Below the pieces are notes generated by a model. The model saw nothing but the letters and a program-made list of their open reading frames with translations, did not search any database and was not told the origin of the DNA. Below, piece after piece: positions 36,526 through 57,176 of a DNA stretch of 64,000 nt (its first letter is position 1; each line of letters begins with the position of its first letter). The DNA is from Bradymonas sediminis. GTDB taxonomy: Bacteria; Myxococcota_A; Bradymonadia; Bradymonadales; Bradymonadaceae. The stretch covers positions 4,323,501 to 4,387,500 of the forward strand of contig NZ_CP030032.1 in the NCBI RefSeq assembly GCF_003258315.1, given 5' to 3'. The position numbers were made by a program, and so were the translations under genes.

Positions 36526-37116
36526 GCCGCGTCGGCCCTCCATCCTTCACGATCGCCTCGCGCGCGAGGCGATCGTCGGCGCCACGATTCGATCGACCGC
36601 ATTCTACCGGCATTTGCCCCGGTTTTTGCCCCGATTGCCCTCGATTACGTCCCCCCGCGTGGCGGCGGGTGAGCAAAAATATTTTCCCCCGCTAAGCCAT
36701 GATATTTGTTGGACTTTCGAAGAGCATCGCGCAGACATTTCAAAAACGCGGTTTACAAATGCATTCCACTATATATAGTGGGCCGCAAATCAGGCACACC
36801 CCAAGATGTTGTGGTTTGGGCCATTCACTCCGGCTGAACCTGGTGCCGATTTATGCCTTATTTATCGCTCATTTACGTGATTTCTTCACAAGAAATTCAC
36901 AGGCTTAATTTAGACCTTTGAGGGGCCGCGCCCCCCGCTCATTCACCCAATATTTGTGCCCGTTGTTTAGGTCGTCATCTTGCCGTCGTGCGACACGCCG
37001 GCCCACGACTTCAGGGCCACCTGGGCTGAGAGAGTGCTGGAGAGCGCCGCGCGCTCCGCTGAATAACACACCGTATTTAGTCACTCGTATTTTTCGCTTC
37101 ACCAAGGAAAGTGGTC
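36526..37116 (+). promoter_or_regulatory. Long upstream region of nrdJ
   Basis: 590 bases with no credible gene. AT-richer than the coding DNA around it. It contains the paired NrdR boxes listed separately, and a perfect short inverted repeat near 36540-36570 (GATCGCCTCGCGCGCGAGGCGATC). Confidence 0.6.
36766..36814 (+). promoter_or_regulatory. Paired NrdR boxes
   Basis: CCACTATATATAGTGG (36766-36781) is a perfect palindrome matching the NrdR consensus ACACTATATATAGTGT in its core. A second, weaker copy CCCCAAGATGTTGTGG begins at 36799, 33 bases later, close to three helical turns, which is the normal paired layout for the NrdR repressor. It lies ~340 bases before nrdJ, so the transcript would have a long leader. 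Confidence 0.75.
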
Positions 37117-39081
37117 ATGATTATCGACGTCAAACGCTGGGGTTTCTTCCAATTGGACTCACGCTTTCTCGACGAGTATCGAGAGCGCCCGGTCAACTGG
37201 GGATTCGGAGACCTCTCCTGGGTCACCTATAAACGCACCTATAGCCGCGATGGCGAGGACTGGTGGCAAACCTGCCAGCGGGTCATCGAGGGGATGTTCA
37301 CGATTCAGCGCGTCCATTGCCTGGAGCGCGGGCTGCCGTGGGACGAGGAGAAGGCGCACGGGTTTGCGTGCAAAGCCTATGACCGCCTCTTCCAATTCAA
37401 GTGGACCCCGCCCGGGCGCGGCCTGTGGATGATGGGCAGCGACTATATCTATGAGCGCGGCGGCGCAGCGCTGAATAACTGCGGCTTCATCTCGACCAAA
37501 GAGATTGACCGCAACTTCTCGCGCCCCTTCGCCTGGATGTTCGGCATGTCGATGCTCGGCGTGGGCGTGGGCTTTGACACCAAGGGCGCGGGCAAGCGCG
37601 AGATCGTGCGCCCCGAGCGCAACGACGACAATTTCGTCATCCATGACAGCCGCGAAGGTTGGGCCGACGCCCTCACCTGCCTGCTGGACGCCTATGTCGG
37701 CGAGGGCAGCCTGCCGGCGACCTGGGACTACTCGCAGGTGCGCAAAAAAGGCGCCGAGATCAAATCCTTCGGCGGCGTGGCCAGCGGCCCGGCCCCCTTG
37801 CAGAAGATGCTCGAGACCCTCGACGCGCTGCTGAGCACCTATGTCGGAAAAAAGGTCGACAGCCGCCTGATCGTCGACACCATGAATATCACCGGGCGCT
37901 GCGTGGTCAGCGGCGGCGTGCGTCGCACCGCGCAGATCGCGTTCGGCGAGCCGGACGACCAGGAATTCCTGGACCTGAAGATGGACATGGAGAAGGTCAG
38001 CGCGTGGCGCTGGGCGTCGAACAACTCCATCTCGGCCAAAGTCGGCATGGACTACTCCGACGTCGCCAAGCGCACCGCGGTCAACGGGGAGCCCGGCTAC
38101 CTCTGGCTCGACAACGCCCGCGCGTTCGGCCGCATGAAAGACCCGGCCGACTGGAAGGACGAGCGCGCCGAGGGCTCGAACCCCTGCGTCGAGCAGACCC
38201 TCTGGGACAAGGAACTCTGCTGCCTGGTCGAGACCTACCCGGCCCACCACGACAGCTTCGAGGACTTCAAAGAGACGCTGCGCGTCGCCTACCAATACGC
38301 CAAGACCGTCACGCTGATTCAGACCCACGACGCCGGCACCAACGCGGTCATGCTTAGAAACCGGCGCATCGGTTGCTCGATGACCGGCATCGTCCAGGCC
38401 ATCAACAAGCACGGGTACCGCAACTTCTTCAACTGGTGCGACGAGGGCTACGGGTATATCCAATATCTGGATAAAAAATACTCGGACTGGCTGTGCATCC
38501 CGCGCTCCATCAAGACCACCAGCGTCAAGCCAAGCGGCACCGTGTCGCTGCTGGCCGGCGCCACGCCGGGCGTCCACTGGGACCACGCGCCCTACTATAT
38601 CCGGCGCGTGCGCGTTCAAGCCGGGCATGACCTCATCGATATCTGCCGCGAAGCCGGCTACCATATCGAAGAAGATCACTACTCCGACAACACCATGGTC
38701 ATCTCTTTCCCGACCAAGGTTCAGTCGCTGGACCGTCGCAAAAACGAGGTCAGCCTGCGCGAGAAGATCGACTTGGCCGCGCAGGTCCAATATTATTGGG
38801 CCGACAACCAGGTGAGCTGCACCGCCGAGTTTGACCCGGAGACCGAGGCCGATGAGATCCCGCAGATCCTCGCCGCCTACGAGACCCGCCTCAAAGGCAT
38901 CTCCTTCTTGCCGATGAGCAACCACGGCTATGTCCAGGCGCCCTATGAGGCGATCAGCGAGGAGAAATACAACGAGCTGATGGAGGGAATCACGCCGCTT
39001 AAACAGGGTCCCTCCGGCACCCTGGCCCACGACCAGGACGACAAGTTCTGCTCGGGCATCGCCTGCGAGGTCAAACTCTAA
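37117..39081 (+). CDS. nrdJ: Adenosylcobalamin-dependent (class II) ribonucleoside-triphosphate reductase, monomeric type
   Basis: 654 residues from the ATG at 37117, with AGGA nine bases upstream; a GTG two codons earlier is too close to that site. Close in layout to the Lactobacillus leichmannii enzyme: SWVTYKRTYSR, GGAALNNCGF (redox Cys), GAEIKSFGGVASGPAPL, SNPCVEQTLW (radical Cys and Glu), KTTSVKPSGTVSLLAGATPG, and a C-terminal CSGIACEVKL with the two shuttle cysteines. It makes dNTPs from NTPs using B12, with or without oxygen. Controlled by the paired NrdR boxes upstream. Ends with a large palindromic terminator. Confidence 0.95.
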   Translation: MIIDVKRWGFFQLDSRFLDEYRERPVNWGFGDLSWVTYKRTYSRDGEDWWQTCQRVIEGMFTIQRVHCLERGLPWDEEKAHGFACKAYDRLFQFKWTPPGRGLWMMGSDYIYERGGAALNNCGFISTKEIDRNFSRPFAWMFGMSMLGVGVGFDTKGAGKREIVRPERNDDNFVIHDSREGWADALTCLLDAYVGEGSLPATWDYSQVRKKGAEIKSFGGVASGPAPLQKMLETLDALLSTYVGKKVDSRLIVDTMNITGRCVVSGGVRRTAQIAFGEPDDQEFLDLKMDMEKVSAWRWASNNSISAKVGMDYSDVAKRTAVNGEPGYLWLDNARAFGRMKDPADWKDERAEGSNPCVEQTLWDKELCCLVETYPAHHDSFEDFKETLRVAYQYAKTVTLIQTHDAGTNAVMLRNRRIGCSMTGIVQAINKHGYRNFFNWCDEGYGYIQYLDKKYSDWLCIPRSIKTTSVKPSGTVSLLAGATPGVHWDHAPYYIRRVRVQAGHDLIDICREAGYHIEEDHYSDNTMVISFPTKVQSLDRRKNEVSLREKIDLAAQVQYYWADNQVSCTAEFDPETEADEIPQILAAYETRLKGISFLPMSNHGYVQAPYEAISEEKYNELMEGITPLKQGPSGTLAHDQDDKFCSGIACEVKL

Positions 39082-55956: not shown

Positions 55957-56275
55957 ACGCCTTATACGCCAAAACCGCCCAGATGAGCGTGCCCAATAGG
56001 AGCGCCGAGCCGAGCGCGAGCAGCAACCAAGAAACCCCCGACCCGGCCATGCCGAAGAGCGACGTAAACACCCCCAACGTCGCTTCTAGCCCACTTCCGG
56101 CGTCGTTCTCTATCATCTGCTCGCCGGCCTGCACGGTCGGGCCGCACGCGGAGCGCCCCATGGACCCGAGCCCTAAGAGCACCAGGCCGCTGGTACCCGT
56201 GAGCAGGCCCAGACAGCCCGACATGACCCGAAAGGGTGTACGAAATTTGTTCGGCTCGGCGGGCTCAAGCTGCAT
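55943..56275 (-). CDS. Small membrane protein
   Basis: 110 residues with two hydrophobic segments: about 17-38 (VMSGCLGLLTGTSGLVLLGLG) and about 80-102 (SWLLLALGSALLLGTLIWAVL). Two cysteines. Start ATG at 56275. No recognised family. Divergent from the riboswitch-thioesterase unit. Confidence 0.65.
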   Translation of the reverse strand: MQLEPAEPNKFRTPFRVMSGCLGLLTGTSGLVLLGLGSMGRSACGPTVQAGEQMIENDAGSGLEATLGVFTSLFGMAGSGVSWLLLALGSALLLGTLIWAVLAYKAFESR

Positions 56276-56374
56276 ATCTTTGATCCTTTTGAGGCGCGCT
56301 CAATCCCAATGGCGCGGGTTCACCTTTAAGTAAATCGATGCTGCCCGGGTTGACAAGCCCAATAGGCTGCTGCA

Positions 56375-56572
56375 GGTTCCTCGGCGTGTTGGTGCTGCCG
56401 GGGCGAGTCCGCGGCGGCTTAAAAGGGAATCCGGTGCGAATCCGGAGCTGCCCCGCAGCGGTAAGTGAGAACGAACCCCACATCTGTGCACTGGTCCCCG
56501 AGGGGGCCGGGAAGCCGTGGGGCGTAGGAATTCGGTGCAAATCGACCCGCTCACGAGTCCGAAGACCTGCCC
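56375..56572 (+). ncRNA. Cobalamin (adenosylcobalamin) riboswitch
   Basis: Conserved elements of the B12 riboswitch appear in order: GGTTCC at the 5' side, AAAAGGGAATCCGGTGCGAA (the core), TCCGGAGCTGCCCCGCAGC, GGTAAG (B12-box region), and the 3' closing GAGTCCGAAGACCTGCC. Large peripheral loops are present. The region downstream of it and before the gene contains the expression platform, with a GC-rich stretch ahead of the Shine-Dalgarno at about 56713-56718. The first gene downstream is an acyl-CoA thioesterase, not a B12 synthesis or transport gene. Confidence 0.9.
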
Positions 56573-56726
56573 GCATCTGGCCGGCGAGCGATCGCCGCAG
56601 GCCAGCTTGACCCGGAAGCCTCGTGGGAAGGTTTCGGTCCGAGCAGACCCCTCTGTGCACCCCTGCCCCGACCTGTGTCCATTCCTGCGCTTTCGCCCCC
56701 CTTTTATTAAGCCCAGGAGCGCGCAA

Positions 56727-57176
56727 ATGCCGTCGAATCCGCCCCAAAACGTCGAAACCTCTCTGCCCACCCCGCCCACCGAATGCCGTCTCGTCGAGAT
56801 GGTCTTCCCCCAGCAAACCAACCACTATGGCACGCTCTTTGGCGGCCAGGCGCTGGCCCTGATGGACAAGGCCGCGTTCATCTGCGCGTCGCGCTACGCA
56901 CGCCGCACGGTGGTGACCGCGAGCAGCGAGAAATGCGATTTTCACGTCCCGGTGCGCCAGGGGCAATTGGTCGAGCTCATCGCCCGGATCATCGCCACCG
57001 GGCGCACCTCGCTGACGGTCGAGGTCGACCTCTATGCCGAAGATCTCTTGACCGGCGACCGCCAACTCGGCACCCGCGGGCGCTTCGTGATGGTGGCGCT
57101 GGACGCGCACGGGAACCCGGCGGTGGTGCCGGGGTTGGCCGGAAAAGTATGTGATTCGGAGCGCCCTCAACCCTGA
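56727..57176 (+). CDS. Acyl-CoA thioesterase (hotdog, YciA-like) under a B12 riboswitch
   Basis: 149 residues from the ATG at 56727 with AGGAG upstream. Hotdog fold of the acyl-CoA hydrolase group: EMVFPQQTNHYGTLFGGQAL with the catalytic Asn/Gly-Gly region, DKAAFICASRYARRTVVTAS and FHVPVRQGQLVEL. It should release free CoA from short- or medium-chain acyl-CoA. The cobalamin riboswitch 155 bases upstream implies the gene is turned down when B12 is sufficient. A propionyl-CoA or methylmalonyl-CoA relief role fits, since methylmalonyl-CoA mutase needs B12. Confidence 0.88.
   Translation: MPSNPPQNVETSLPTPPTECRLVEMVFPQQTNHYGTLFGGQALALMDKAAFICASRYARRTVVTASSEKCDFHVPVRQGQLVELIARIIATGRTSLTVEVDLYAEDLLTGDRQLGTRGRFVMVALDAHGNPAVVPGLAGKVCDSERPQP

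Follow-up and report, generated by a model that had tools for sequence, protein, structure and literature searches.

A cobalamin riboswitch ahead of a YciA-like acyl-CoA thioesterase, and the recurrence of this pairing beside genes of B12 independence

Our question was why a cobalamin (B12) riboswitch should lead into the gene of an acyl-CoA thioesterase. For two of the three main enzymes that need B12, well-known substitutes that work without it are placed under B12 riboswitches; for coping with a stalled methylmalonyl-CoA mutase, the third, we know of no comparably general answer. The pair lies in the window, by which we mean the whole 64-kb stretch of DNA that was analyzed, itself part of a complete 5.05-Mb genome. 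The best explanation, which we hold to be rather probable, is that the thioesterase is made at low B12 and hydrolyzes propionyl-/methylmalonyl-CoA behind the stalled mutase. The features of the locus are the following.

56373-56588, + strand: cobalamin (B12) riboswitch aptamer, RF00174 (cmscan 105.1 bits, E 2.8e-25)
56616-56634, + strand: candidate L13 hairpin just 3' of the aptamer, loop GUGGG complementary to aptamer CCCGC (about 56453)
56682-56719, + strand: predicted hairpin hiding the Shine-Dalgarno (SD) sequence, UUCCU (56682-56686) with AGGAG (56715-56719)
56727-57176, + strand: hotdog-fold acyl-CoA thioesterase, 4HBT, YciA-like, 149 aa (PF03061, 74.3 bits)

The original prediction had read a B12 riboswitch core here, and the covariance model bears it out: RF00174 matches at 105.1 bits against a gathering score of 31.5 and over model positions 1-189, its full length; the switch is typical of its family. 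It is the sole RNA family matched when the entire window is compared with Rfam by cmscan, and one of just two cobalamin riboswitches found by a search of the whole genome. The aptamer sits in the 5' leader of the thioesterase gene, on the same strand and 138 nt ahead of the ATG. The limits first given for the pair, 56375 and 57176, are correct to within 2 bases, and the next gene is, as claimed, a hotdog acyl-CoA thioesterase (74.3 bits against a PF03061 cut-off of 20.6). Nothing was said to lie between the two, and the 138-nt gap is indeed without a gene; neither a sigma-70-like promoter nor a + strand intrinsic terminator was found in it. A minus-strand open frame at 56265-57170 and other long frames across the riboswitch were dismissed as spurious high-GC mirror frames.

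The ATG of the thioesterase has its own SD sequence, AGGAG, at 56715-56719. Its open frame extends upstream into the riboswitch, but in the orthologues the protein begins at this ATG or close to it. The motif NHYGTLFGG...MD is invariant in the orthologues (N32, G35, F38-G40 and M46-D47 across six of them), and we take this conserved N..HG..FGG..MD region to be the active site of 4HBT acyl-CoA thioesterases. Acyl-CoA hydrolysis is thus predicted from the family. The protein shares the hotdog 4HBT fold family with the acyl-CoA thioester hydrolase YciA / HI0827 but is only YciA-like by score, reaching 52.7 bits with the YciA equivalog (NF007970), below the curated cut-off of 162; YciA itself has no link here to a B12 riboswitch. 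The thioesterase looks monocistronic, since roughly 500 bp devoid of any convincing gene separate it from a SNF2-type helicase downstream (57694).

The thioesterase is probably controlled at translation, with the SD sequence hidden. In single-sequence folding the SD bases 56715-56719 are paired with a probability of 0.91-1.0. The entire leader shows no folding advantage over shuffles (z 0.57). The translational model thus has the SD pairing as its basis, and we regard the 56682-56719 hairpin as a weak candidate for a translational off-switch. Leaders of this kind let B12 turn off translation of metE and btuB in Caulobacter (PMC6538847). The hairpin at 56616-56634 also appears in the predicted fold. 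Its position and GYGGG loop are conserved in 6 thioesterase leaders, the loop being GCGGG in most relatives, and by its complementarity to the aptamer CCCGC it is a candidate for an L5-L13 kissing interaction. That B12 represses the thioesterase, rather than inducing it, is a direction that we infer from the class of the riboswitch and from its partner genes.

The need for B12 in the host becomes apparent from the rest of the genome. The window was also said to encode a B12-dependent ribonucleotide reductase (RNR), which is found as follows.

37111-39081, + strand: RTPR-type adenosylcobalamin-dependent ribonucleotide reductase, class II (TIGR02505, E 8e-95, just below the curated cut-off)

As far as the genome was searched this is its sole RNR, no PF02867 and no NrdD being found. 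A lone, weak PF00268 (R2-like) protein at G000:C1:2249061-2249654 has no partner large subunit and is perhaps an R2-like oxidase. The methionine synthase is MetH, and a search for MetE found none. The genome has a methylmalonyl-CoA mutase together with a fused mutase of IcmF size, and a citrate-synthase-II/methylcitrate-synthase gave no match above cut-off anywhere in the order. The host therefore appears B12-dependent for DNA, methionine and the disposal of propionyl-CoA. CbiC was searched for and not found, so the corrin ring is probably not made and the organism is apparently auxotrophic for B12. Among the backup genes (nrdAB, metE and the thioesterase) the genome retains the thioesterase alone: its transcription unit holds no B12-independent isozyme, and MetE and the class I RNR large subunit are missing genome-wide. 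The genome's second cobalamin riboswitch precedes three genes for secreted or lipoprotein-like products, in a locus at G000:C1:4191167-4194158. The first product has a distant likeness to LIC13354, another resembles the LIC_13355 lipoproteins, and the third is beta-propeller-like. Comparable gene sets stand behind switches in several relatives. A BtuB-like receptor was expected there and not found; the three genes are a candidate surface B12-capture system with no adjacent TonB receptor.

We looked for the same pair in related genomes of the order (G003, G007 and G010 to G012 below). The order has 39 cobalamin riboswitches, 4 of which directly precede a thioesterase orthologue: those of the window, G010, G011 and G012. 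A fifth, in G007 of the window's family, heads nrdA-nrdB-thioesterase, where nrdB and the thioesterase gene overlap. In G010 and G011 nrdAB and the thioesterase each have a switch of their own, and G012 keeps switch and thioesterase without a class I small subunit like theirs. G003, also of the window's family, has a thioesterase gene 61-63% identical with no switch nearby, and none of eight more distant homologues in the order's genomes is near a cobalamin riboswitch. Methylmalonyl-CoA mutase is present in 26 of 26 genomes and the close thioesterase in 6 of them, so co-occurrence within the order says little. G010 and G011, which are Lujinxingia-like, have class Ia nrdA-nrdB behind its own riboswitch and also a second PF02867 protein of NrdJ size.

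Beyond the order, an alignment of the orthologues was used to scan 85,000 species genomes, and the best 80 relatives were picked by protein similarity alone. Their neighborhoods were read with a covariance model built from 20 switches and with reference proteins checked against NCBIfam. A riboswitch lies upstream on the same strand within 4.5 kb in 50 of these 80 relatives, many of which are close kin and some of which served to train the model, and within 500 bp in 25. The order's density of 0.25 switches/Mb would lead one to expect about 0.05 by chance; switch numbers per genome may be higher in other phyla, yet not a thousandfold higher. Rfam's own models confirm distant switches independently and in three families (RF00174, RF01482 and RF01689), with RF00174 in Pyrinomonas, Thermus, Pseudobacteriovorax, Myxococcus and Myxococcales 68-20 and RF01482 in Obscuribacterales. 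The genes nrdA, metE, core-metE or prpC occur within 5.5 kb on the same strand in 46/80, and a switch or a gene for a B12-independent isozyme (class I RNR, MetE, methylcitrate cycle) is nearby in 64/80. The remaining 16 have neither, and 3 of these are myxobacterial operons with a switch about 7.8 kb upstream. In a tree of 85 thioesterases, built on few columns and with many open forks, the riboswitch label clusters and no number of origins is supported. Two public records seem to bear the wrong name: 'Comamonas sp. KCTC 72670', which bears a locus of Myxococcaceae type, and a 'Bipolaricaulota' MAG contig about 99% protein-identical to Thermus.

Direct pairs of riboswitch (RS) and thioesterase or its orthologue (TE) are also found in two Myxococcus species, Obscuribacterales and Thermus. 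The other layouts, in gene order, are these.

RS-nrdA-nrdB-TE: Nannocystis, Plesiocystis, Labilithrix, Polyangiaceae, a Terriglobia MAG
RS-nrdA-nrdB-TE-metE: two Eremiobacterota
RS-TE-nrdA-nrdB-metE: Pyrinomonas
RS-TE-nrdB-nrdE', metE inserted in some: Thermus
RS-metE-TE: Sphingomonas, Brevundimonas, Chelatococcus
RS-DUF1852-core-MetE-TE: Brevundimonas
RS-DUF1852-core MetE-TE-acnD-prpF-small gene-prpC-prpB-acnA, one strand: Novosphingobium sp. P6W
RS-lipoprotein-TE-icmF: Myxococcales 68-20
ICL-TE-prpD-prpC, no switch directly in front: Xanthobacter
TE-prpC, no switch directly in front: Polaromonas, Zoogloea
TE-prpD-prpC-prpB beside a short-chain acyl-CoA regulator, plasmid: Paracoccus
TE-nrdI-nrdE-nrdF, plasmid: D. 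radiodurans
nrdI-nrdE-nrdF-TE behind a 51-bit AdoCbl-II switch, plasmid: Allomeiothermus
metE-TE and nrdHIEF behind separate strong switches, plasmid: Shinella
TE within 3 kb of methylmalonyl-CoA mutase, plasmid: Azospirillum

The most telling of these is Novosphingobium sp. P6W, where the whole row would form a single transcript; its switch is RF00174 (114.9 bits), and a short-chain acyl-CoA regulator follows acnA. Ahead of the D. radiodurans thioesterase no switch at gathering level was found, only a sub-threshold AdoCbl-II match of 25.2 bits. The Myxococcaceae have the switch at the start of a 7.8-kb operon whose last gene is the thioesterase. The operon has two aminotransferases, an aldehyde dehydrogenase, a two-subunit CoA-transferase, a thiolase of 3-oxoadipyl-CoA type and the thioesterase, and judging from its genes it would be a catabolic pathway under B12 control. 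In Myxococcus sp. CA023 it is reduced to the switch, the opening codons of gene 1 and the thioesterase. The window, where switch and thioesterase stand without nrdAB, may parallel this reduction; it seems, then, that the two were retained on two occasions as the other genes were lost.

The window pair thus exemplifies a conserved association of B12 riboswitches with a thioesterase, and the finding is larger than first stated. Co-regulation of the thioesterase with genes of B12 independence is well supported by these operons, and the same thioesterase, under the same kind of switch beside backup enzymes in many unrelated bacteria, is likely to be a part of the response to B12 shortage that has been overlooked. 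With plentiful B12 the riboswitch would repress the YciA-like thioesterase, and with scarce B12 the enzyme would be made. It would then probably cover the third main B12-dependent step, that of the mutase: propionyl-CoA and/or methylmalonyl-CoA would build up as the mutase stalls and be hydrolyzed, which would free CoA and allow the acid to be released. In the window organism, which has neither nrdAB nor metE, the thioesterase would be all that is left under the switch.

As to the substrate, YciA as used in engineering frees propionate from propionyl-CoA (PMC9399607), and enzymes of its type yield methylsuccinate and mesaconate from their CoA esters (PMC9529712). Mesaconyl- and methylsuccinyl-CoA are branched dicarboxylic CoA esters, like methylmalonyl-CoA. 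This range of products, together with the prp, icmF and mutase neighbors, makes the propionyl/methylmalonyl-CoA node our best guess. A mutase is found in 38 of the 39 thioesterase genomes searched outside the order, a suggestive count that is phylogenetically confounded. Sphingomonas pruni has RS-metE-TE, and a search for its mutase found none, which calls for caution on the role tied to the mutase. Of the original prediction, B12 control is strongly supported by the conserved pairs and operons. Its further part, the relief of a stalled mutase, fits the prpC/prpD/prpB, icmF, mutase, metE and nrdAB neighbors and is something that we infer. The stronger statement, that this hydrolase is devoted to propionyl-/methylmalonyl-CoA and forms, beside nrdAB (for NrdJ) and MetE (for MetH), the third standard module of bacterial B12 independence, has in our estimate an even chance of being right.

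Other explanations have to be weighed against this one. The thioesterase could belong to the B12 regulon and yet meet a different need than backing up the mutase, acting on another acyl-CoA derived from lysine or branched chains, or on an intermediate of methionine or nucleotide synthesis. Its most frequent links, to nrdAB and metE, would suit this, as would the Sphingomonas pruni copy with no mutase detected and the Myxococcaceae operon, whose aminotransferases, aldehyde dehydrogenase, CoA-transferase and thiolase allow other substrates. However, besides the propionyl/methylmalonyl-CoA node it is hard to name a need common to the copies linked to nrdAB, metE and prp, and that node is the one indicated by the methylcitrate operons and icmF, so we consider such a role unlikely.

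It is far less likely still that an ordinary housekeeping thioesterase came to stand behind the riboswitch by chance and has no role related to B12. YciA-type enzymes do have a broad range, and G003 lacks a nearby switch, while 16/80 best relatives lack both switch and isozyme. Despite this, the pairing recurs over many phyla and involves three riboswitch families and various isozymes, against the 0.05 or so expected, and 0/8 distant homologues in the order are near a cobalamin riboswitch. We give equally little credence to the window's switch being the relic of an RS-nrdAB-TE operon that lost nrdAB, with the thioesterase carried along under a control that no longer matters. G007 of the same family has just such an operon, and the window genome lacks the class I RNR large subunit, but the aptamer is intact and high-scoring. 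Additionally, G010 and G011 use separate switches for nrdAB and the thioesterase, G012 keeps both switch and thioesterase without nrdAB, and the reduction in Myxococcus CA023 is an independent one that kept both. Hydrolysis of propionyl-/methylmalonyl-CoA at low B12 thus remains the reading that we prefer.

Compared with the RF00174 regulons of the metE and nrdAB isozymes, the aptamer family and the low-B12 logic are the same, and in relatives the thioesterase shares those very operons; the gene controlled here, however, is a thioesterase and not an isozyme. The cobalamin regulon classes of Sun et al. 2013, the chief comparative survey of such regulons, are B12 synthesis, B12 transport, cobalt transport and isozymes, with no thioesterase named (PMC3766115); the main text of that paper uses neither 'acyl-CoA' nor 'hydrolase'. 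In the open-access literature we found no published report of a link between a B12 riboswitch and a thioesterase. Its place under switches over many phyla makes this enzyme a concrete and easily tested candidate for the response to a stalled mutase, and orthologues exist in two bacteria used in the laboratory, Thermus thermophilus and Deinococcus radiodurans. In humans, B12 deficiency is marked by methylmalonic acid. If our reading is true, B12-starved bacteria would in parallel release methylmalonate or propionate.

The nearest solved relatives of the window protein are 2EIS (TTHB207, Thermus thermophilus HB8) and 2GVH (AGR_L_2016p, Agrobacterium). A search of the open-access literature found no papers naming TTHB207, and 2EIS is titled 'hypothetical protein' in the PDB; the reading above, if true, would give this structure a function. 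A gene of TTHB207 type lies on pTT27, 133 bp behind an RF00174 match and ahead of nrdB-nrdA. Unlike the window protein, 2GVH is a double-hotdog version, and the alphaproteobacterial thioesterases are often doubled in the same way, with tandem hotdog domains.
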